From positions 1-47,938 of the IMG/VR virus record IMGVR_UViG_3300027862_000001: 47,938 nucleotides of DNA; one strand, 5' to 3'. Below, one piece after another: positions 2,687 through 14,688 of this stretch (the first letter of the stretch is position 1; the number at the start of each line of letters is the position of its first letter). Position numbers and translations under genes: made by a program. The notes beneath the pieces are model-generated. The model saw nothing but the letters and a program-made list of their open reading frames with translations. It made no database searches and was not told the origin of the DNA. Source of the DNA: a virus.

Positions 2687-3301
2687 ATGCCCTCCTTGCC
2701 TCAAACTCTAGCCTTTCTGCTCAGCGATTCAGGGCTCCCCGTCCACGACTTCGCGATTGTTATCGAGGCGCAGCAGCGCCTTGTGCAGCAGTACCAGAAA
2801 ACGAAGATTCAGGCGTTAGTCGGTGCACTAGCACTTCCAGCACAGGATCTCGAAGATGCTCTCTACCAGATCTTGACCTTGCGCTGGCTCACGTCAGCTC
2901 AGGGCATCCAGCTCGACGCGCTCGGGCGGATCGTAGGCCAACGTCGGCTTGGTCTCGATGACCCCACTTATCAGCTATTTCTGCAGGCGCGGATCCTGGT
3001 GAACAAGAGTTCGGGAGGTCCCGAGGAGTTGATCTCCGCGCTCAAGATCGTGCTGTCCTCGACCGCGACGCTCGAGCTTCGCTACTTCTTGCCGTGCTCG
3101 TTCACAATGACGATCCACGGTCAGGCTGTGACCAATGTCCTCGCCGCCGTACTCGCTCAGCTCTTGACCTCCGCTCGGGCGGCTGGAGTAGGTGCTCAGC
3201 TGATCTGGAGTACGGTCGCGCCGAGTGCTACCTTTACACTAGATGGAACAGCCACCCAGGCGCTCGACAATGGCGCCCTGGCTGAAGCAGTAGGAGTTTA
3301 A
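2687..3301 (+). CDS. DUF2612-family baseplate/tail protein
   Basis: A 204-aa protein. The central segment (about residues 60-115) reads LTLRWLTSAQGIQLDALGRIVGQ, then RLGLDDPTYQLFLQARILVNKSSG. That is the conserved core of the DUF2612 family of phage tail proteins, functionally comparable to P2 gpI / Mu gp48 next to J. It is thought to link baseplate wedge and fibers. The gene starts three bases after the spike stop codon (TAAAAAATG) and is followed two bases later by the next gene. Whether it contacts the spike or the 199-aa neighbour directly is inference. Confidence 0.8.
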   Translation: MPSLPQTLAFLLSDSGLPVHDFAIVIEAQQRLVQQYQKTKIQALVGALALPAQDLEDALYQILTLRWLTSAQGIQLDALGRIVGQRRLGLDDPTYQLFLQARILVNKSSGGPEELISALKIVLSSTATLELRYFLPCSFTMTIHGQAVTNVLAAVLAQLLTSARAAGVGAQLIWSTVAPSATFTLDGTATQALDNGALAEAVGV

Positions 3302-3303
3302 AA

Positions 3304-3903
3304 ATGCCCGCACCTAAACCGACGACCGTACCTGATTGGGATACCGCACTGCTCAACCTCCTGACACCTCCAAGCGGGCAGATCACGAACGGCTGGACGA
3401 ACGGCCAGATCCCTCCCTCAAACTGGTTTAATTGGTGGATGAACCTCGTAGGTCAGTGGACGGACTATTTGCGAGATTTTGAACTGATCGCGCATACGTG
3501 GACACTTTTGCAGACATTTGCTGCGCGGCTCTCACTGACGGATGCGAATCCTGCAGCAACGGTAGGCTTCACCAATACCTTGCTAGCAAAAAATCTGATC
3601 AAGGCATGGGCACACATCACGACTGACGGAATCGGCGGGATCACTCTCGTTGATGGTTTTAATGTCGCGAGCGTTCAATTGCCTGGTGCGAGTGTCCTCC
3701 AGGTCACATTCGCGAATCCGATGGCGAATACGAATTATGCCGCAGTCGGGATCGCGCAAGCCGACACATGCCCGATCCTCAATTTGATTCAGACAGGTTT
3801 GGTCAGTTTTCTATTTGACAATCTGGGTCCGTCTCCTCTTACGCGCCTCAATCCAGCAACGACAGCGCTTCGTTTCACAATGCTTGTTATCGGTGTCCAG
3901 TGA
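3304..3903 (+). CDS. short tail-fiber-like protein
   Basis: A 199-aa protein. Its first 55 residues contain the pattern PDWDTALLNLLTPPSG, then GWTNGQIPPSNWFNWWMN and WTDYL. This is the aromatic-rich N-terminal module of many phage tail appendage proteins that hook to a baseplate. The remainder is beta-rich with no recognisable enzyme motif. It follows the DUF2612 gene by two bases and its TGA overlaps the GTG of the next gene. It may be a second receptor-binding or fiber-tip protein; the function is inferred from position and N-terminal pattern only. Confidence 0.6.
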   Translation: MPAPKPTTVPDWDTALLNLLTPPSGQITNGWTNGQIPPSNWFNWWMNLVGQWTDYLRDFELIAHTWTLLQTFAARLSLTDANPAATVGFTNTLLAKNLIKAWAHITTDGIGGITLVDGFNVASVQLPGASVLQVTFANPMANTNYAAVGIAQADTCPILNLIQTGLVSFLFDNLGPSPLTRLNPATTALRFTMLVIGVQ

Positions 3904-4247
3904 ATCTGAACTCAACAATCAAACTCCCTCTTGGCATCCTTGGCCCTGTGGTCGCGGCTGCCCTAGCGATCGGAGGATCGCTCATCGCGACCAAGGTTAG
4001 CGCCGCTCGCGGAGAAGAGCGTCTCGCCAATCATGCGGCGCTTCTCCAGGAAACCCGAGATAACGTCAAGACGCTCGAGGGGGCCTTTGAAGCGCAGATG
4101 CTTCACCTCCAACGCCTCGATGATAGCCTGCAACACATCACAGAGACCGTTGATCGCATGGAAGACTATATGCACATGCGTCCACCGACCACGCGCGGTT
4201 GGGAGCGGGATCCGGTAGCGCCAGCCATTCCGACGATTCCTCAGTGA
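3900..4247 (+). CDS. membrane-anchored coiled-coil protein, lysis cassette
   Basis: A 115-aa product read from GTG, overlapping the upstream TGA (GTGA). Residues about 8-30 form one hydrophobic segment (LGILGPVVAAALAIGG...). Residues about 35-92 are a heptad-like helix rich in E, Q, L and D, followed by a Pro-rich tail. One TM plus a coiled coil fits a holin-associated or spanin-like lysis accessory, or XhlA-type protein, and it directly precedes the endolysin. I do not recognise a named family. The next gene starts at a GTGA overlap at its end. Confidence 0.6.
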   Translation: MNLNSTIKLPLGILGPVVAAALAIGGSLIATKVSAARGEERLANHAALLQETRDNVKTLEGAFEAQMLHLQRLDDSLQHITETVDRMEDYMHMRPPTTRGWERDPVAPAIPTIPQ

Positions 4248-5798: not shown

Positions 5799-7313
5799 CT
5801 ATCCCGCTCTCCACTTACCGTCGATGATCGTGATCAGCGAGCGTTTCCCGTTCGCGTAGATCCCGCAGTGAGTGTTCAGCCAGGAGGAGGGACCCAGATT
5901 GTACGCAAGACGCAGAGGCGTGGACGTGCCGACCTTGTAGTGCCCTTCCTCGATTCCCGGCGCGTGCGAATGGCCAGTGATAACGCGGACACCTAGACGC
6001 GCGAGGTTGTGCATCGTACCGCGAACCCCGTTTGGACCTCGGTGTCCATGCAGCCCACACTCGATCCCTCCGATCAAATGGGAGTCATTCGGACCCAAGA
6101 AAGAGATGTCCCCTCTGGCACCCATCATCTTTGCCCAATATGCGAACGGATCAGCGTATTTGCCCCCGTTCGGCGTATTCTCAGCGCTCCGAAGCATCGC
6201 GAGCGCGGTCTTTAAGTAGAACTCACCATTCCGTGCGCCCAAAAACTTCCAATCGTTTTTGAGGATCCAACGTGCCAGAAAGTCGGGGTGATTCGAGTCA
6301 ACTATAACGGCGCCCCGGCCTTGGGCGCGTGAGTTGATATAGCGTACGCAGTGCGCAATCTCGGCGGCAACGTCTGATCTAATCGCGCGCTGTTTCGCGG
6401 CAGCCAAAAACGGGTTGCCAGCCTCGTGCGGATTGACAGTTTCACAATCGATCACGTCGTGGAAGACCAGCTCCTTCGGTTTCAGCGTCTCGACGATCCC
6501 GCCAGCTCCGAAAGTTGCGCGGTCTACCTTGGGATCGGTGACGCGCGCGTGAGAGTCTCCAAGAACTAACCCGAGAGCGGGCGGGGCTTTCTCGCAACCA
6601 CTCTGTGTGTACCTCCACTCGAGGTCGATGAACGACCCGTCCTTGCGATCAGCGTTGATCTGGCGAAGATGGAATTTCTTTCCCTCAACTTCAACAATCA
6701 CGGCACCCAGAAAATGGTGAAATGCTCCGATCTTTCCGGCCTTGCTGTCCGTATAATTTTTTTGCGTACAGGCGCCTGTAGTGGAAAGGATTTTCGGATA
6801 CCGCCCTTGAGGCACAGGCACGGATACGAACTGCATTTTAGGATGACCAATGATGCAGCTCTCTGCGCCCGTGAGGGACTCGAATCCTGAAAGTGGGCGC
6901 GCGGCGGTAGGTTGAACCTTCACGTCCGCGCAGAGCACTAGGTTCGCGCAGAGCTTCTTTCGGACGTTGAACAGGTAGGGCTCAACCTCCTTCGCCCACC
7001 ATTCTGCATTCTGCTGACTTGCAGTCCACGCGCTTGTCGGGTTCTTGTATCTCAACGGGATCACGACCAGCTCGGCACGCATGATCTTTGCGGCTTTGAG
7101 AAGTACATCAAAAAATTTCGCATCAACGGGGGTCCCGTTCTGCGCCGCCGTGATTAGATACTTCTTGCGCGTGAGTACTCGCGTAAAGCGTTTGGGTTTT
7201 GCCACGTTTCGACAGATCGCGCAGACTGTACGCCGACCGTCTGGCGCCGAGTTGTTGCGCTGAAACGCAGTCAGGACTTGTGACTTCCCGCACTTTGAGC
7301 AGTTCTTTTTCAT
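5799..7313 (-). CDS. T5 A1-like metallophosphoesterase with N-terminal zinc ribbon
   Basis: About 504 aa. Residues 1-40 hold CSKCGKS and CAICRN, a zinc ribbon. The C-terminal half has the calcineurin-like phosphoesterase signature: VLGDSHARV (GDxH), HDVIDCETVNPHE, VDSNHPDF (NH), ECGLHGHRGPNG and VITGHSHAPG (GHxH). These motifs and the tail GTSTPLRLAYNLGPSSW recall the T5 A1 protein and its relatives, linked in T5 to host-DNA degradation and second-step DNA transfer. A nuclease or nucleotide-phosphatase role is likely but not provable here. I place the start at 7313 because that ATG forms an ATGA overlap with the upstream zinc-ribbon gene; ATG 7322 in the same frame is the alternative. Confidence 0.75.
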   Translation of the reverse strand: MKKNCSKCGKSQVLTAFQRNNSAPDGRRTVCAICRNVAKPKRFTRVLTRKKYLITAAQNGTPVDAKFFDVLLKAAKIMRAELVVIPLRYKNPTSAWTASQQNAEWWAKEVEPYLFNVRKKLCANLVLCADVKVQPTAARPLSGFESLTGAESCIIGHPKMQFVSVPVPQGRYPKILSTTGACTQKNYTDSKAGKIGAFHHFLGAVIVEVEGKKFHLRQINADRKDGSFIDLEWRYTQSGCEKAPPALGLVLGDSHARVTDPKVDRATFGAGGIVETLKPKELVFHDVIDCETVNPHEAGNPFLAAAKQRAIRSDVAAEIAHCVRYINSRAQGRGAVIVDSNHPDFLARWILKNDWKFLGARNGEFYLKTALAMLRSAENTPNGGKYADPFAYWAKMMGARGDISFLGPNDSHLIGGIECGLHGHRGPNGVRGTMHNLARLGVRVITGHSHAPGIEEGHYKVGTSTPLRLAYNLGPSSWLNTHCGIYANGKRSLITIIDGKWRAG

Positions 7314-7456
7314 TCTGGCCATTCGGCTAAGAGTTTACCTTTTCCGCAAGGGCATGAGGCGCGCCCGCGGTCAATCCACTTCTTTGTGATCCTCGCAACG
7401 TATCCACATTCAGGACACACGCACTTGATCAGTCTTGTTTTTTGCTTAGCGCCCAT
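7310..7456 (-). CDS. 48-aa zinc-ribbon protein, SprT-tail-like
   Basis: An open frame of 48 codons starting with ATG at 7456 (MGAKQKTRLI) and ending at the TGA that overlaps the next gene's ATG. The core KCVCPECGYVARITKKW...ASCPCGKG has the spacing of the zinc ribbon found at the C-terminus of SprT-like proteins (CPxCGY...CxCG), but without the SprT protease domain. It overlaps the DUF5664 gene end by 28 bases. It may bind DNA/RNA or act as a transcription adaptor; this is inference. Confidence 0.65.
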   Translation of the reverse strand: MGAKQKTRLIKCVCPECGYVARITKKWIDRGRASCPCGKGKLLAEWPE

Positions 7457-8028
7457 CGATCGTCAGTCCCCAGATTTTCTAGTTGGTAAGTCAGCAAGAA
7501 CAGCACGCAGCAGCCTGCGTGACCAAGGTGGCTGAGTCCCGTTTCTGGATCCGTGCTCTCACCATTCGCAAACGCCGTAACGTGCCTCAGCAGCGCGTCG
7601 ATCAACCTACTCCAGTTCATTCCCTCGCGCCACTTGTTCGGCGCGTACTTCTTGGCGCCAAAGTGGAGCACGGCCGCGATCTCCGCGAGTGCTTGGGTGG
7701 CGCCGAGGATCGGGAAGAGCGAAGGCTTCCCCGAGTCCTTTTTCATTGTTTGATCTTTCGGCTTTTGGGCATATAACGTTGTGCTGCAGATCCCGCAAAT
7801 GTACACGCCCGACTTCCAATACCAATTAGCTTCAGGGTGTTTACAGCCTTTAGCGACCTTGGGCTTTTCGAGCGTCTCGAGGTCGCGCGGAGGTGGTAAA
7901 GGCGCGGGCATTGGTTTTCCCAAACAATCATCACAGACGAAGCGATCACCGTTGCTGTAGAACCAACGTTTTAAAGGCTCGGTAGTATTTCCGCATCGAG
8001 TACACTTAAGCACCACACTATCGGCCAT
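7429..8028 (-). CDS. DUF5664 dATP/dGTP diphosphohydrolase-like protein with zinc-ribbon N-terminus
   Basis: 199 aa from ATG 8028, chosen because AGGAGG lies just upstream. Two Cys-pair modules come first (C9xxC12...C32xxC35, then a C/H cluster at 62-81). From about residue 98 the all-helical domain runs KDSGKPSLFPILGATQALAE, FGAKKYAPNKWREG, LIDALLRHVTAF...HLGHAGCCVLFLL. I recognise this as the DUF5664 family, annotated as dATP/dGTP diphosphohydrolase, a MazG-like pool editor best known from 2-aminoadenine phages. It sits immediately downstream of RuvC-like and HD-hydrolase genes. Substrate specificity cannot be read from sequence. The Cys-rich N-terminus is an unusual addition. Confidence 0.75.
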   Translation of the reverse strand: MADSVVLKCTRCGNTTEPLKRWFYSNGDRFVCDDCLGKPMPAPLPPPRDLETLEKPKVAKGCKHPEANWYWKSGVYICGICSTTLYAQKPKDQTMKKDSGKPSLFPILGATQALAEIAAVLHFGAKKYAPNKWREGMNWSRLIDALLRHVTAFANGESTDPETGLSHLGHAGCCVLFLLTYQLENLGTDDRWALSKKQD

Positions 8029-8521
8029 ACATCCTCCTAGGTTGAAATCTTCCCAAGTGATAGAGTCCGATCGCAATCGCATCCCACACATTGTGTTGCC
8101 TTGATCGTGCGTTAGGAAAAGCGATCTCTGAAATCTCCTCGGAGCTCATGCGATCGATCGCGCGTAGGCGCGTTTGTTCTTTGTTCATCGAACCCTTCCA
8201 CATCTGTGGAGAGTAGCGAAAATGTACCGCATCGGGATATAACGCGCAGATCCAGGCATCGACCCCAATCAGATCTTGCAAGATCTTGGTCTTGTACGGC
8301 CGGTCGGCGCGGTACGCCGAGGGTTGCTCAAACGCAACTTGATCGATCTTCACCTGATGCCCGTCGGTCCATTGGCGGACTCGCGAAGCAATCGCCTTCC
8401 AGGCCGCGGGACCTTCAAGATTGCTGTAAGCCACTACATATGCCGCGTGGAACAGCCGCCCATCGAGAAAAAGCGCAACACCGCATGCGCGCTTACCTGG
8501 ATCTATCGAGAGAAGGACCAT
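8018..8521 (-). CDS. RuvC-like Holliday junction resolvase
   Basis: 167 aa starting at ATG 8521. RNase-H-fold catalytic acids are visible: LLSIDPGKRACG (D7, motif I), VAFEQPSAY (E65), and HNVWDAIAIGLYHLG (H143, D147). This matches phage RuvC-family resolvases that debranch replication or recombination DNA before packaging. The longer in-frame extension upstream (to 8632) is entirely inside the HD gene and lacks conserved residues, so I reject it. It overlaps both neighbours by 11-19 bases, implying translational coupling. Confidence 0.85.
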   Translation of the reverse strand: MVLLSIDPGKRACGVALFLDGRLFHAAYVVAYSNLEGPAAWKAIASRVRQWTDGHQVKIDQVAFEQPSAYRADRPYKTKILQDLIGVDAWICALYPDAVHFRYSPQMWKGSMNKEQTRLRAIDRMSSEEISEIAFPNARSRQHNVWDAIAIGLYHLGRFQPRRMYGR

Positions 8522-9120
8522 AGCGCCTCGAATCTTTGCATGAACATCTTTTCTGCCTGGCGGGGCGTCCAGCCCACGATCGTTTGATTCTTGAGCGCCT
8601 TCCCGCGCTTCACGGTCTGCCACTTGTACCATTCCCGATGCACGGGTTTCATGAGGTCTCTAACTTCTGTCCAGAGTAGATCCGTATCTGCTTGCTTGAT
8701 CTCATGAAATAGCGTTTCCGGCAGTTTGAACTTTCGCAAAATTTTTCGGAGCAAGTGATCTTCCGCCGCTCGATATGCTGCGAACGCTTCTTGATGCTTA
8801 ACGGGCGTGGCCACATCTCCGAGATATGCTTCGGCTGCGTCATGGAAGAGTCCTTGCCTCGCGACCCCCATGCACTCTTCGGGATCTCCGCCCTCACTGC
8901 TACAGATCTCCTCGGCGCGCCACGAGACTCGGACACAATGCTCTGCGACCGAATAGAAATTGTTGACGTGCCCAGTGTAGCGGCAAAGGTTGCTCAGCGC
9001 ATGGGCGATATCCACGAGATGGATTGCGCGTGACCTCGGCGCGAATGGATGGAACATGATTGGCTTTCCTCGGACGTTGCCGACCTGGATCCACTTTTTG
9101 TCGAGCTTTGCTTTTCTCAT
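8503..9120 (-). CDS. HD-domain nucleotide phosphohydrolase (YfbR/DatZ-like)
   Basis: 205 aa from ATG 9120, preceded by GGAGG at 8-nt spacing. HD signature residues: H61 (SVAEHCVRVS), H93-D94 (GLFHDAAEAYLGD), and a downstream Asp near 147 (QADTDLLWTEVRDL). The YfbR-type 5'-nucleotidase fold includes DatZ, the dATP triphosphohydrolase that removes dATP in 2-aminoadenine cyanophage S-2L. Here it clusters with DUF5664 and a family A polymerase, so dNTP-pool editing is a reasonable role, but generic phage YfbR homologs are also common. Specificity for dATP is inference. Confidence 0.78.
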   Translation of the reverse strand: MRKAKLDKKWIQVGNVRGKPIMFHPFAPRSRAIHLVDIAHALSNLCRYTGHVNNFYSVAEHCVRVSWRAEEICSSEGGDPEECMGVARQGLFHDAAEAYLGDVATPVKHQEAFAAYRAAEDHLLRKILRKFKLPETLFHEIKQADTDLLWTEVRDLMKPVHREWYKWQTVKRGKALKNQTIVGWTPRQAEKMFMQRFEALWSFSR

Positions 9121-9236
9121 CTGCGCTGCCTCCAAGCTTTGAAAACTCCCCAAGAATCGAGCAATCCTTGAATGAGCCAAAGGGTGCAGACTGCCGCGAA
9201 AGCGAATTCTCCGTATGTCGTGACAAGTTTGATCAT
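9117..9236 (-). CDS. 39-aa single-pass membrane peptide
   Basis: ATG 9236 is preceded by GGAG and the frame ends in an ATGA overlap with the HD gene. The sequence starts MIKLVTTYGEFAF, has a hydrophobic core (AFAAVCTLWLIQGLL) and a basic tail (WRQRR). Good start signal and coupling support it as a real gene. Function unknown. Confidence 0.55.
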   Translation of the reverse strand: MIKLVTTYGEFAFAAVCTLWLIQGLLDSWGVFKAWRQRR

Positions 9237-9241
9237 GGTGT

Positions 9242-9775
9242 TCAAACTCCTACTATTGAGCCGAATTGAGAAAAGACGTGCGCGAAGCTTTCGCGCTGAT
9301 CGAGTAATCCAGGCACATAGACGATCGCGCTCGCATGGGTCGGGCTGCCGCTTGGCTGTCCCGTTACCGGATCATCATAGGCGATACGCCGCGAAGGAAT
9401 GCAAAGAGGAAAATCGGAGAGACAGGGCACGCCTTTATTTTGAGTTGTCTGTAGCTGTTCTAGGGAAAAGGCAATATAGATCGCATGCGTCAAGTGCCCG
9501 AGGTCCTTGAACTGTATCAATTTTGCCCAAAATTGCAGGTAGAGCTTACCTGGAGGATTGATCAGAATAGAACTGTGCCGCTTCGGAGGAAAGAGCCAAA
9601 GCTGTGCGAGTCCGTCATGGACACGATCATAGTAGTGCGTTGCACGTACTCGAAGATTCGCGCGCTCCGATGAGGCAGGATCAAGATCAATCGATTCCAG
9701 CACCGTGCGCGCGGCTTCCACGATTGGAAGCGGTGTCAGCCAAGAATCATTTTTGCTGAGGTGTTGGGCGTTCAT
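9242..9775 (-). CDS. phage DNA N6-adenine methyltransferase (Dam-like)
   Basis: About 177 aa. NDSWLTPLPIVEAARTVL followed by SIDLDPASS is the opening of the phage DNA N-6-adenine methyltransferase family (PF05869 type). The catalytic motif IV appears as ILINPPG, with Gly where most relatives have Tyr/Phe. The later segment IAFSLEQLQ...LCIPSRRIAY matches the subgroup that carries this NPPG form. It probably methylates adenine in phage DNA. The window is strongly enriched in GATC (18 sites in bases 1-1008, about four expected), consistent with GATC as target. I start at ATG 9775; GTG 9790 is the alternative. Confidence 0.78.
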   Translation of the reverse strand: MNAQHLSKNDSWLTPLPIVEAARTVLESIDLDPASSERANLRVRATHYYDRVHDGLAQLWLFPPKRHSSILINPPGKLYLQFWAKLIQFKDLGHLTHAIYIAFSLEQLQTTQNKGVPCLSDFPLCIPSRRIAYDDPVTGQPSGSPTHASAIVYVPGLLDQRESFAHVFSQFGSIVGV

Positions 9776-9780
9776 GGTTC

Positions 9781-11898
9781 TTAGATGCACCGGGCGCGAT
9801 CGCGTTTCATCTGCTCTTGATCATGTGGCCAGTCCCATGTCTCCGGCCACCAAGGAACTATTCGACCGTCTTTCCCGATCACCTTTTCTGCGCTCTTAAA
9901 CCAACGGCGCATGATCGCGGGCTCGGGCTCACAGGGTACATCTGGACACCAGTAACGCGCGGCTTCTGTCATTAGCCGTGCCTGCTCTATAGCCGCCGCA
10001 TGTGACAGATCTTCCGGCATCTCGACGATCAACTCATCATGAACATCCAGGTTTGGACGGCATCCGTAAAGAGGTGAGTCTTCCTCGACATAGCAAGATT
10101 TTGACACTCTCCAGAGTGCGTCTTTCATCATGCGCGCCGCGAGCCCTTGGAAGCGCAGGTTTGCCGCCTGAGAGAAGTAACGTCCCCTGACATATAAGGT
10201 CGGCTCTCCTTCTGGACCCCAGCACTCGATCAGCGCATCATCAGGGGTTTCGGTTTCTGCAGATACGAAGTCGAAGTAGTCTTTCATTTCCGGAATCATG
10301 CGATGCCAGGCATTCCGGAATTCGGCCGCGATTTCAGCACAACGTGTGCAGAGAGGTCTCCCAAGCTTCTTTGCAAAATACTTTTCGATCCCACAACGCT
10401 CTGCGCCATCCACGATGCAAAAACGCACGCCTCCATTGCCAGGTTGGCGAGCATGGATCACGAGCTTCTCGAAGCCCATTCCTCCGCCTAGTCCATAGTT
10501 CACGGGTTTCGCAGCTTGTCTCAGTAGCTTCATTCGAGGATCTTTGGCCTTGTACTTGGCGTAGCCTTCCTCGTACAGGATACCTAGCAGGTTTGAGGCG
10601 AGCATCACGTGAGGATCCTTCTTTGACCGCAAGATCTCGGCTAGTGCGGAATGCCCAAACATCCAAAGATGGTTTTGTGCCAGTGTGACCAGTTCGAGGG
10701 AAGGCTGATCTACCGAGCAAAGAACATGCCCAAGCCGGGCAATGAAGCACTCACGCGAACGCCCGCCGCGGGGGAGGTTTTGAAGGTTCGGGTCATAGGC
10801 GCTTTTGCGGAGCGTCTTCTTGATCAGATCATAATGAACGTTGATCGGGACCCTTGTGCCACGGGCGATCACGCTGAGATAGGTTGAGTGCTCTTTTTTG
10901 TTTGTGCCTGCATCGGCGTATGCCATGAGGAGATCGTCGCCTGACTCTAGAAGCGTATCGCGGTCGGTCGAGACTCTGCCGCCCTCTGTCTGAGGAGGAT
11001 CGCCTTGATAGGTGTCAGATACAAGATGCTGAAGCCACTTGCTATCGCCCGTACCTACGTCACTAGGAAGCCAAGGCTTCCAACATTTCGTGAGATCGAA
11101 CTTATGCGGCTGAGTACCTTCGCACTGCTTCTTTCGTCGGCACCAACCCTCACCCCGATAGATGCCGGCTTCCGTGAACTGCACGACGGCTGCCTCATGC
11201 TCAGTAGTCACTTGGCGCGTCACATCTTCAACCATCAAGGGATCGGTGCGGATACCCCAAGAGCTCATCAATTGAAGGCAGAAGTTTGCGCGGTTTTCGC
11301 GGATCTCCAATTTTAGATTCTCGAGCCCGTAATCCATCGATTGATCATTCGCGGCCTCCATCCACGGATCGCGCGCTTCTTGCCTTACAGCAATGTCATA
11401 AGGAGCTCGCGCGTCTTTTTTCGCGTAGTCACGCTCCTCAGGAGTCCAAAGATCGAACGGCACACCGTCGCGATGAGCATACGTCAGCCGTGGGGTGTTT
11501 TCTTTCGCTAGCTGAAACCCAAGCACTTTTTCATTGACGGTTGATAGGGAATAGGTTTCGAGAGGGGCGCCGTTCGCGGCTACCAGAAAAGATCCTCTCC
11601 CGAGATCTAAGAGTGCCTGTCGTACGAGCACGTCGATGATCTGCCCACGCTCGAGCATACCGAAAACGATCTTGATCAGCTCGGGATACATTGCGCACGC
11701 GACGATCAGATCGAAGGGCGCGTTGGCGAGTGCGATCTTGGTTTCCTTTTCCCACGCATCGAGAAAAAACGCGCGACACTCGGTTGGCGTCAAGAGCCTC
11801 TCACCTCTCGCATCGGCAACCTGGCCGACGACGAGCTTGGGCGCGACCAGACCTGGAATCGTTAGGTAAGTCTCACTGTCGTAACCGAAATCGATCAT
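9781..11898 (-). CDS. family A DNA polymerase with 3'-5' exonuclease
   Basis: 705 aa from ATG 11898, which makes an ATGA overlap with the upstream gene. Exonuclease motifs: DSETY (I, N-terminus), ANAPFD (II, about 58-63), DYAKKDA (III, about 157-163). Polymerase motifs: A is VDQPSLELV (about 396) where Pol I has DYSQIELR; B is RQAAKPVNYG (about 460-469) with Tyr at the T7-like selectivity position; C is VHDELIV (about 619-625). After motif B there is an insert with C-x7-C-x14-C-x2-C (about 494-520), a possible zinc site in the fingers. It should be the replicative polymerase. The altered motif A and Cys insert set it apart from T7-like enzymes. Confidence 0.9.
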   Translation of the reverse strand: MIDFGYDSETYLTIPGLVAPKLVVGQVADARGERLLTPTECRAFFLDAWEKETKIALANAPFDLIVACAMYPELIKIVFGMLERGQIIDVLVRQALLDLGRGSFLVAANGAPLETYSLSTVNEKVLGFQLAKENTPRLTYAHRDGVPFDLWTPEERDYAKKDARAPYDIAVRQEARDPWMEAANDQSMDYGLENLKLEIRENRANFCLQLMSSWGIRTDPLMVEDVTRQVTTEHEAAVVQFTEAGIYRGEGWCRRKKQCEGTQPHKFDLTKCWKPWLPSDVGTGDSKWLQHLVSDTYQGDPPQTEGGRVSTDRDTLLESGDDLLMAYADAGTNKKEHSTYLSVIARGTRVPINVHYDLIKKTLRKSAYDPNLQNLPRGGRSRECFIARLGHVLCSVDQPSLELVTLAQNHLWMFGHSALAEILRSKKDPHVMLASNLLGILYEEGYAKYKAKDPRMKLLRQAAKPVNYGLGGGMGFEKLVIHARQPGNGGVRFCIVDGAERCGIEKYFAKKLGRPLCTRCAEIAAEFRNAWHRMIPEMKDYFDFVSAETETPDDALIECWGPEGEPTLYVRGRYFSQAANLRFQGLAARMMKDALWRVSKSCYVEEDSPLYGCRPNLDVHDELIVEMPEDLSHAAAIEQARLMTEAARYWCPDVPCEPEPAIMRRWFKSAEKVIGKDGRIVPWWPETWDWPHDQEQMKRDRARCI

Positions 11899-11993
11899 GC
11901 GGCGGGGAGTTTCCAAGCGAGGCGGCAGTCCGTACAGATTGGAGGCACGCCTCCAAAGTAACCGCGCTTTTCGCAGATATAGCAGGTTTTCAC
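11895..11993 (-). CDS. 32-aa zinc-finger mini-protein
   Basis: GTG at 11993 is preceded by AGGTG, and the frame ends in an ATGA overlap with the polymerase. The peptide starts MKTCYICEKRGYFGG and continues PPICTDCRLAWK, giving CxxC...CxxC, a minimal zinc ribbon. Coupling to the polymerase start and a compact Cys4 motif support expression. Its role, perhaps as a polymerase accessory, is unknown. Confidence 0.55.
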   Translation of the reverse strand: MKTCYICEKRGYFGGVPPICTDCRLAWKLPAA

Positions 11994-12010: not shown

Positions 12011-12094
12011 AGACAATGGTGGGAGTCGAACCCGCGCGCCTTGTAGATAGGCGGCTAGCCTGGACAGCCGTCCTGCGGATGTCCTGCCATTGCC
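12011..12094 (-). tRNA. tRNA-like element, anticodon ambiguous (CAG-Leu class II fold or CTA)
   Basis: On the minus strand an acceptor stem GGCAATG/CATTGTC (one G-U) encloses 69 nt. The 3' side holds a T-arm with a perfect TTCGA loop and 4 of 5 stem pairs, then a T-run; CCA is not encoded. Total length 83 nt fits a class II tRNA. In that fold the anticodon arm GGCTG/TAGCC presents CAG (Leu), with C instead of U at position 33, and GCCT/AGGC is the variable arm. Alternatively CGCCT/AGGCG is a perfect 5-bp anticodon stem whose loop ATCTACA shows T33 and CTA (amber), but that leaves a far too long D region. The D-arm is poor in both. It may be degenerate. Confidence 0.55.
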
Positions 12095-12103
12095 CTAAAA
12101 TCT

Positions 12104-12664
12104 TTACTTCGCTTCATTGATTGCTGCGGCCAGAGGATGATCTGCCGGCGCAGGCAATTGTGTCCACTTGGTCTTCGTGATCTTCTGGGTCTTCTTTTGA
12201 TTATCCCCAAGCCACGCCTCGCACTTGACTTTCAGACCCTTGAGTTGACTCACGGGACCATCGCCGATCTGGATCAGCTTTTCGTACGTGAGCGCTTCCG
12301 GATCTTTCGGATCGCCCGCGGGCTTCACAAGCTCTGCCTGCGTCTCATGCGTGATCGCCGACAGAATCCGCATGAACAGAGTGGTCTTGTACTCATCCAG
12401 CAAGTCGAACGATGTAGATGCCGTCGCGCCGACCTGCTGAGGATACTTACCTTGTTCCTTGTAGAATGCTTCGGGTTGTGTCGATTCGACTTTATCAACC
12501 GAAAATTCCACAATGCCCGTGACTTTTGACTTGTAGCCCTCGAACACTTTCACGTTCTCGACATTGAACACGTAGATCGCGCCAGCCGCGATCCAGTTTC
12601 CAGAATCCCCGAAGGTCTTTGTCTTCTCATTGATCCGCTGTCTCACTGCTTCTCTGATTCCCAT
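12104..12664 (-). CDS. unknown replication-cluster protein, possibly ssDNA-binding
   Basis: A 186-aa soluble protein of unrecognised family. Residues about 20-60 are beta-like (AAGAIYVFNVENVKVFEGY..VTGIVEFSVDKV), the middle is helical (LLDEYKTTLFMRILSAI), and the tail is K/T/A-rich (NQKKTQKITKTKW...). An N-terminal beta-barrel-like half with an acidic/Ala tail, placed between helicase and polymerase genes, would suit an OB-fold single-strand-binding or replication accessory protein, but no signature proves it. It follows the small TM gene and precedes the tRNA-like element by 9 bases. Confidence 0.5.
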   Translation of the reverse strand: MGIREAVRQRINEKTKTFGDSGNWIAAGAIYVFNVENVKVFEGYKSKVTGIVEFSVDKVESTQPEAFYKEQGKYPQQVGATASTSFDLLDEYKTTLFMRILSAITHETQAELVKPAGDPKDPEALTYEKLIQIGDGPVSQLKGLKVKCEAWLGDNQKKTQKITKTKWTQLPAPADHPLAAAINEAK

Positions 12665-12822: not shown

Positions 12823-14688
12823 TCATCTGGCGAAGGAGTAAGCGGCGTAAGAAAGTTTTTGCGGGTTCGGGGTTGTCTCCCCGACGTATCGCGCCAGCTC
12901 TTCAGCCTTTTCGAAAGCCGTGCGCAGTTCAGGCGTGTGCAGGTACAGCTCGACTTCCACGGTATCCGCTAACTGCCCGCGGCGGTGCGTTCGCCCGAGC
13001 AGCTGTTCCCACATCGCGGCATCAGGCGGCTGCTGGGTCACGAGGTTGCGTGAGAACATCTGGAGGTTCTTGTTTTTGTGGTGTGCCTTCATGGAGGCGA
13101 CAATCGATCTGTACCCTTTTTCCCGAAGAATGAGTACAGATGCCTCAGCACCTCCGCCGTAGCGGGGCACGCCTGCTAGCTCCGCGATCCTGATCCCTAG
13201 CACACGGTTTGAGTACCAGATGATCCCGTTATTTGAGCGCGACCATTGTGCAGCATCTTGCGCAAGCCAGTCATCGATCCATACTCCCTCAACCTCGGGC
13301 TCGACCTGTTTACGGATAGCCCGCCACGCCTCGAAGGTTTGGCTGTGCCACACGGGGCGCTCGGGTGTGCCTGTCTGCCCTAGGGCGGCCCTGATCGCGG
13401 CCCTAGCGGCCAATTTTGGCGAATCGAGATGGAGTTTAGGGTACTGTAAGAGTTCTCTGACCTCCCGATTCCACGCCTGCCGCGCCTTGAACCACTGGTC
13501 GATCAGCTCGGGGAGTTCCCCGCGAGGGTAGATCCACCGGTAGTAGAAGCCCGCGGCTATTTCTTTCAAGCACTTAGAGATCTGCCAAGCTTCAGTGAAC
13601 TCCTCGCCGTCGGGCCGGGTTGCGGTCCGACGCACAGAGGTTAAAACCTTTTGAACCTTCTCGGGCACGTTTAGGGTACGAAGATGCACATTAAGTGCAT
13701 TAGGGATCGCGCTCTCCGACGTGTCGATCATGCCGGGAGTCGCGGCGCGGCGCCGTTTGAAGGCGGCTCGAATGGACTCTCCAGGTCGGCAGAACTTCAC
13801 TAGGGAGCCCATCAAGGCAGGGAGCTTACCGCCATCCTTCGGAGGGTCGATGGCCTGCGCCCAATCTTCGAGCGTCGCCTGATCGTTTGGAAGTGGGGAG
13901 CCCTCACCAAGCGCCAGTGAGCACAAATGCCCATAGTCTTTGAGGGATCGAGTCGTTAATGTACCGCTAAGCGGTATAAAGCGACATTCCGGATGCTCGG
14001 CGCAGTAAGACAAAACGCGGCGCGTTCGGACACTCCCAAGCCCGCAGATCGAGTGCGCCTCGTTCGCGATGATCAGATCGGGTTTCCATTGTTGGAGGGC
14101 CGCCGTGAACTTCTCATGGGAAAGCTCCGAATAGGCGATCACCTTTAAGCGGGGCCGCCCTTTCACGAACACTGACCCTCCTACGAGGTTTGGCTGATGC
14201 CAGTGCTGTCCGTAGTAGTCCCAATCGAGGCGCAGAGACTCGCGCATGTCGGGCGAGATCAGCAGGATCGCAGTCTTGCAATCGCGCATTACGAGAGGAA
14301 GCAGCTCACAGATCAGCTCTTTGCCGTGGCCTACACCGATCGCTCCGACCATTCCGTTTAGGGTTGCCGCTTCGGTCAACGCCTGCGCTTGAATCGGGAG
14401 GAGCGCTTTCGCGCAGGGGCGCCGCATCTCGGAGCATTGACAAGCCTCATTCGCTTTCTGCAAAAAGGAGAAATCGAGTAAGGTGCTTTCCTTCCGTACA
14501 GGAAGCGCAAGGATCCGATCGAGATCAGAGCTCTTGCCCACCGATGGGCGGACATGTCGCGACGGTGGGGTCGCTTGCCCCTCTACCGCAACGTCCGTGT
14601 AGCCCAGGCGTGCCGCGAGGGACGCCCTAACTGGCTTCGGGATCGATGGGCTGATCTGCCGGCGTAGCAGCTCGGAGAGACTCGGCAT
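12823..14688 (-). CDS. SF2/SNF2-like helicase with degenerate ATPase motifs
   Basis: 621 aa. Helicase order is clear: motif I as GAIGVGHGKE (about 115-124), motif Ia region ILLISPDM, motif II as LIIANEAHSI (about 205-214), motif III as PLSGTLTTRS (about 239-248), and motif VI as QLLGRTHRRGQ near residue 570. In motif I the usual Thr/Ser after Lys is Glu, and in motif II the DEAH Asp is Asn. Both positions coordinate Mg-ATP, so ATPase activity may be lost while the fold is kept. Residues 80-95 hold a small Cys cluster (CQC...C). It overlaps the Cys-rich gene upstream by 62 bases and no Shine-Dalgarno is visible, so the start is uncertain. Confidence 0.82.
   Translation of the reverse strand: MPSLSELLRRQISPSIPKPVRASLAARLGYTDVAVEGQATPPSRHVRPSVGKSSDLDRILALPVRKESTLLDFSFLQKANEACQCSEMRRPCAKALLPIQAQALTEAATLNGMVGAIGVGHGKELICELLPLVMRDCKTAILLISPDMRESLRLDWDYYGQHWHQPNLVGGSVFVKGRPRLKVIAYSELSHEKFTAALQQWKPDLIIANEAHSICGLGSVRTRRVLSYCAEHPECRFIPLSGTLTTRSLKDYGHLCSLALGEGSPLPNDQATLEDWAQAIDPPKDGGKLPALMGSLVKFCRPGESIRAAFKRRRAATPGMIDTSESAIPNALNVHLRTLNVPEKVQKVLTSVRRTATRPDGEEFTEAWQISKCLKEIAAGFYYRWIYPRGELPELIDQWFKARQAWNREVRELLQYPKLHLDSPKLAARAAIRAALGQTGTPERPVWHSQTFEAWRAIRKQVEPEVEGVWIDDWLAQDAAQWSRSNNGIIWYSNRVLGIRIAELAGVPRYGGGAEASVLILREKGYRSIVASMKAHHKNKNLQMFSRNLVTQQPPDAAMWEQLLGRTHRRGQLADTVEVELYLHTPELRTAFEKAEELARYVGETTPNPQKLSYAAYSFAR

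Follow-up and report, generated by a model that had tools for sequence, protein, structure and literature searches.

Can a phage genome that lacks PurZ still be suspected of containing 2-aminoadenine (Z) because other members of the Z-genome toolkit seem to lie side by side in it? The question is raised by a virus record of 47,938 bases, IMG/VR IMGVR_UViG_3300027862_000001, the whole of which is called the window below. On its minus strand are genes for a DUF5664 protein (annotated as a dATP/dGTP diphosphohydrolase), an HD-domain hydrolase and a family A DNA polymerase; the original prediction named all three at this place, and each is matched by a Pfam profile. That prediction likened the three to MazZ, DatZ and DpoZ of the Z-phages. 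The likeness is superficial. We read the cluster, with a probability of about 0.6, as part of the replication operon of a phage with most likely ordinary bases, in which pools of deoxynucleoside triphosphates (dNTPs) are trimmed and the resulting monophosphates (dNMPs) disposed of.

PurZ and the three toolkit look-alikes

The absence of PurZ, already pointed out in the original prediction, was confirmed: the PF00709 profile finds no candidate in the six frames of the window, although, used in the same way, it picks up the PurZ of phiVC8, SH-Ab 15497, S-2L, Wayne and Ghobes. The DUF5664 gene (7429-8028, minus strand) has its likely start at the ATG at 8028, with AGGAGG upstream, within an open reading frame (ORF) of 7429-8091. 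Its family membership is clear, PF18909 ("dATP/dGTP diphosphohydrolase, N-terminal") matching residues 113-212 of the ORF at 104.7 bits (cut-off 27) and over its full length (positions 2-99 of 99), and phrog_801 matching at 133.9 bits. The domain lies behind an N-terminal Cys-rich region with two zinc-ribbon-like segments; in the phage record MW202816, a separate zinc-ribbon gene adjoins DUF5664. Two further families, phrog_2252 and phrog_5033 ("endolysin; inhibits RNA polymerase"), also match the domain, and their label looks like a misannotation. The window domain is 47-52% identical to the DUF5664 domains of phages without PurZ, namely Khlen (KP34-like), CRP-823 (a Roseobacter phage), EBPR siphovirus 2 (49-52% for these three) and two Manatee Spring phages, and 34% identical to those of the Z-phages Wayne and SH-Ab 15497. 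DUF5664 is found in 981 of 50,697 phage records, and any PurZ/PurA match in at most about 207; hence, DUF5664 is not a marker of Z-DNA. Arthrobacter phages with canonical genomes are also known to have it (PMC12884076). A separate PF04447 (DUF550/MazZ) domain, found in SH-Ab 15497 and S-2L, was detected nowhere in the window. The presumption that DUF5664 would be inactive without DUF550 was dropped, since the stand-alone DUF5664 of Wayne turns dATP, dGTP and dUTP into dNMP in vitro (PMC12884076).

The polymerase gene (9781-11898, minus strand; the ORF is open from a TTG at 11916, with 11898 the likely start) encodes a family A enzyme with 3'-5' exonuclease motifs. The ORF matches Pfam DNA_pol_A at 73 bits and is assigned to the same family by PHROGs, the exonuclease motifs and the set D403, E408, K470 and H626-D627 are intact, and the structural model (predicted local distance difference test score, pLDDT, 77.5) has the ordinary Klenow/apPol fold, with Z scores of about 30. 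Motif B, RQAAKPVNYGLGGGMG, has Gly478 at the place of Tyr766 of E. coli Pol I. Both DpoZ clades carry Phe at this position (F459 of phiVC8, in helix O), where Tyr has been described as otherwise strictly conserved (PMC8599892); with Gly478, the window polymerase does not share the DpoZ Phe. The core of the motif reads NYGLGGG in the window and NFGxPGG in its relatives, and nearly all other family A polymerases have the Tyr. In the trees the window polymerase falls in a clade supported at 100/100, together with MW202816 and uncultivated phages, and joining it to either the phiVC8-like or the Wayne-like DpoZ clade is rejected (approximately unbiased, AU, test p 3.9e-11 and 1.9e-13). A DpoZ identity is rejected both on the tree and on motif B. 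The top 50 PDB matches of the model hold no DpoZ entry, which by itself carries no weight. The fingers carry at their tip (residues about 498-528) an inserted Cys4, zinc-ribbon-like stretch, which is modeled with low pLDDT and is seen in the window and MW202816 only.

The HD protein (8503-9120, minus strand; ORF open from 9180, likely start 9120) is of the YfdR type and not a DatZ, as profile, tree, pocket residues and fold all indicate. The ORF matches the YfbR-like profile PF12917 at 31.2 bits (cut-off 25.9). Among PHROGs, the deoxyribonucleoside 5'-monophosphate phosphatase family phrog_318 matches it at 169.7 bits (2.2e-49) and the dATP triphosphohydrolase family phrog_7076 at 32 bits; three known DatZ proteins show the reverse pattern, scoring 79-252 bits with phrog_7076 and no more than about 31 with phrog_318. 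The HD protein shares 34% identity with YfdR of E. coli (E 1.7e-25). A single clade with DatZ is rejected at an AU p of 0.018, on a tree with long branches. Compared with the DatZ active site, the metal ligands are kept (H81, H113, D114 and D165, for H34, H66, D67 and D119 of DatZ), as are the phosphate contacts R19, K81 and K116 of DatZ, but since YfdR-type proteins have the same metal and phosphate residues, these are not diagnostic of DatZ. Where DatZ reads deoxyribose and adenine with W20 and I22 (PMC8065100), the HD protein has Tyr and Gly instead. Its AlphaFold model (pLDDT 89) finds the best PDB match in Atu1052, with a Z score of 21.7; DatZ (13.3), YfbR (13.0) and OxsA (12.1) follow far behind, with scores similar to each other. 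E. coli YfdR and Agrobacterium Atu1052 belong to the same phrog_318-type family as the HD protein, in a different gene context.

The comparison can also be made phage by phage. Wayne, an Arthrobacter PurZ0 phage in which DUF5664 lies beside PurZ and DmtZ-DutZ, shares with the window a stand-alone DUF5664 in a replication region with a family A polymerase; the differences are the DUF5664 identity of 34%, the lack of PurZ in the window, where no Dut or NDT-like (nucleoside 2-deoxyribosyltransferase-like) DmtZ was seen either, and a polymerase of another clade. SH-Ab 15497 (Acinetobacter), phiVC8 (Vibrio) and S-2L (a cyanophage), the phages of DatZ, MazZ/DUF550, DpoZ and PurZ, have in common with the window an HD-fold phosphohydrolase, a family A polymerase except in S-2L, and DUF5664 in SH-Ab 15497 only. 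The window departs from them in its YfdR-type HD protein with Gly at I22, in Gly rather than Phe in motif B, and in lacking DUF550 and PurZ. With an HD protein that is not DatZ, a polymerase that is not DpoZ, no DUF550 and a DUF5664 that is not diagnostic, the proposed resemblance to the toolkit does not hold.

A clade of Gly-type polymerases and its neighborhoods

The closest annotated relative is Caudoviricetes ctsHD2 (MW202816, our L001), which has both the Gly-type polymerase and the Cys4 insertion and a gene order of SNF2, polymerase, methyltransferase, a further enzyme, RuvC and DUF5664. The polymerases are 33% identical, and the slot of that further enzyme, occupied in the window by the HD gene, is held in MW202816 by an NDT-like DUF7768 gene. 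A search of IMG/VR with the pattern KVANFGxPGG returned 38 contigs, with every match inside a polymerase of the Gly-type family; DUF5664 is present in 9 of these records. The clade comprises about 40 contigs, almost wholly from uncultivated phages (the window, L001, L020, L041-L045 and L064-L101). No PurZ was found by profile search in these records or in any of the relatives searched, and a scan of genome contigs gave no prophage relatives of the polymerase.

Neighborhoods were taken from 41 de-duplicated loci. Their conserved core consists of a Cas4-like protein, SNF2, a protein in the position of a single-stranded DNA-binding protein (SSB), the polymerase, a RuvC-like protein and an exonuclease. 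Beside the polymerase, nine loci have DUF5664, six an NDT-like DUF7768 gene and three an HD gene. The DUF7768 proteins, similar to nucleoside 2-deoxyribosyltransferases, are those of L001 (15343-15888), L070, L074, L075, L085 and L094. At least one of the three enzymes lies within 5 kb of the polymerase in 16 of the 41 loci, whereas none of 10 loci with a family A polymerase of another kind has one (Fisher p 0.02), a comparison that is suggestive only, its control set being small and query-biased and kinship being ignored. No recurrent gene resembling a base-synthesis enzyme was found near the polymerase among the 41 loci. DUF5664 and this type of HD protein also occur together, without PurZ, in L007, L017 and EBPR siphovirus 2.

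Layout of the operon and genome

The first and last 99 bp of the window are identical, and the record thus looks complete. Terminase, portal, major head protein and tail sheath genes are on the plus strand, which suggests a contractile-tailed phage, and the replication genes are on the minus strand. Between the three genes of the original prediction sit two that it did not mention. One encodes a RuvC-like, Holliday-junction resolvase-like protein (8018-8521, minus strand; weak matches to phrog_159 and phrog_1770) that recurs beside the polymerase in relatives. The other (9242-9790, minus strand) encodes a protein like the phage N6-adenine-methyltransferases, with 56.7 bits for phrog_111 and 19.3 bits, under the cut-off, for PF05869; its catalytic motif is NPPG, the usual form being NPPY/F/W, and it may be inactive or a variant. 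Upstream of the polymerase is the core SNF2-like helicase gene (12823-14688, minus strand; phrog_62), with homologues beside the polymerase in 26 loci. The conserved protein encoded between the two (12104-12664, minus strand) has no family match, and only its position suggests an SSB role; 20 relatives have a protein of comparable size between SNF2 and polymerase.

The gene next after DUF5664 (5799-7322, minus strand) encodes a homologue of T5 A1, a protein of DNA transfer and host DNA degradation. It matches phrog_1745 at 478.6 bits (5e-143), and by blastp the product aligns with T5 A1 over most of its length. Phage T5 combines pre-early A1 with the 5'-deoxynucleotidase Dmp, and the window likewise has its A1 homologue near a presumed deoxynucleotidase, in a different gene order. 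As a candidate homologue of Dmp the HD protein was rejected (no detectable similarity, blastp E>3), and so the parallel with T5 is at most a functional one; from its DLDGTI motif, Dmp looks like a HAD-type enzyme.

These genes recur unchanged in L005, a near-identical phage record. The two records differ at 123 positions, nearly all at 2700-4000, and identity is 88% at 415-1012; the differences are almost confined to the tail region. No nucleotide relatives of the cluster were found among phage records. Just upstream of the polymerase, at 12011-12094 on the minus strand, is a tRNA-like cloverleaf with a 9-bp closing stem, a 7-nt loop AUCUACA whose anticodon position reads CUA, and a GGGTTCGACTCCC arm followed by TTTTT. 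It gives no ARAGORN call and scores below the Rfam gathering thresholds; since L042 and L043 carry tRNA-Leu-like sequences upstream of the polymerase, it is probably a decayed tRNA. The amber recoding that such an element might suggest was rejected, because TAG ends 9 of the 68 genes.

Pool trimming and competing explanations

Of the three options left by the original prediction, the evidence favors mere trimming of dNTP pools; the likeness to the Z toolkit fails on testing, and some other base scheme keeps a small probability, with no base-making enzyme found. Our reading in terms of pool trimming builds on the identity and order of the genes, their family membership, the metal ligands, and the absence of PurZ and DUF550, from which we infer substrates, a coupling of two steps, and normal DNA. 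In the first step, DUF5664 would split pyrophosphate off dATP, dGTP and dUTP to leave dNMP, the reaction that its stand-alone counterpart in Wayne carries out in vitro; in the second, the HD protein would strip the last phosphate from dNMPs, leaving nucleosides. Two sources would supply these dNMPs, the DUF5664 reaction and the breakdown of host DNA, to which the neighboring T5-A1-like protein would contribute. The pair would keep purine dNTPs (and dUTP) low and block the return of salvaged dNMPs to dNTPs, and the polymerase would copy the genome from standard dNTPs. In MW202816, the NDT-like protein in the HD slot could consume dNMP by releasing the base.

Several points weigh against pool trimming. 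The destruction of purine dNTPs during replication is left without explanation. The HD protein is likely to be a dNMP phosphatase, but some doubt attaches to this role: E. coli YfdR binds nucleotides weakly and is a DnaA-binding protein (PMC4776307), and the HD protein may therefore have another job. Finally, about 25 of the 41 loci with a Gly-type polymerase show none of these enzymes nearby, many of the contigs being partial. An alternative is that HD and DUF5664 ride along independently in a mosaic phage operon and share no pathway; in its favor, both are accessory, and relatives with the same SNF2-polymerase core mostly lack them. However, three different types of dNTP/dNMP enzyme recur beside this polymerase, and we regard independent passengers as an unlikely, if respectable, account.

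The kinship with a DnaA binder opens the way to a role in host takeover, with the HD protein blocking initiation on the host chromosome as a DnaA ligand, like YfdR, and DUF5664 separately lowering host dNTPs. Such binding is known for one protein only, and the fully conserved metal site of the HD protein points to catalysis, which makes host takeover improbable.

Less probable still, and a long shot in our estimation, is a PurZ-independent group in which the Gly-type polymerase (Tyr766 to Gly) accepts or demands altered substrates, and DUF5664, NDT-like DUF7768 and HD proteins remove the competing standard nucleotide, as a selectivity or base-modification scheme. It is because the well-supported clade has Gly at the very residue changed to Phe in both DpoZ clades that another base scheme is entertained here, and the excess of hydrolases near the polymerase in this clade is in its favor. 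But no base-making enzyme recurs near the polymerase, more than half of the loci lack a hydrolase, and the excess itself comes from a small control set uncorrected for kinship. As for a genuine 2-aminoadenine phage, in which HD, DUF5664 and the polymerase would serve as DatZ, MazZ and DpoZ, respectively, and host PurA or an unrecognized enzyme would supply the 2-aminoadenine deoxynucleoside monophosphate (dZMP), the broad families (HD/YfbR, DUF5664 and family A polymerase) do match those of Z-phages, but with an apparently complete genome and all its relatives searched devoid of PurZ, which the profile finds in five Z-phages, a polymerase outside both DpoZ clades and without their common Phe, an HD protein outside the DatZ clade with Gly and Tyr for I22 and W20, and no DUF550/MazZ domain, its chances are practically nil.

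Pool trimming and dNMP disposal in a phage of ordinary bases thus remains our preferred explanation, and two lessons follow. First, true Z-genome diagnostics (PurZ, DpoZ and true DatZ) can be separated from the look-alikes (DUF5664 and YfdR-type HD proteins) that ordinary phages commonly carry, a distinction that guards against false Z-genome calls. Second, there is an unexpected remainder, which at the level of sequence is the presence of Gly for a supposedly strictly conserved motif-B Tyr across an almost wholly uncultivated clade. This Gly-type clade, repeatedly found beside exchangeable nucleotide-destroying enzymes, offers a lead on the co-evolution of polymerase selectivity and dNTP pools.

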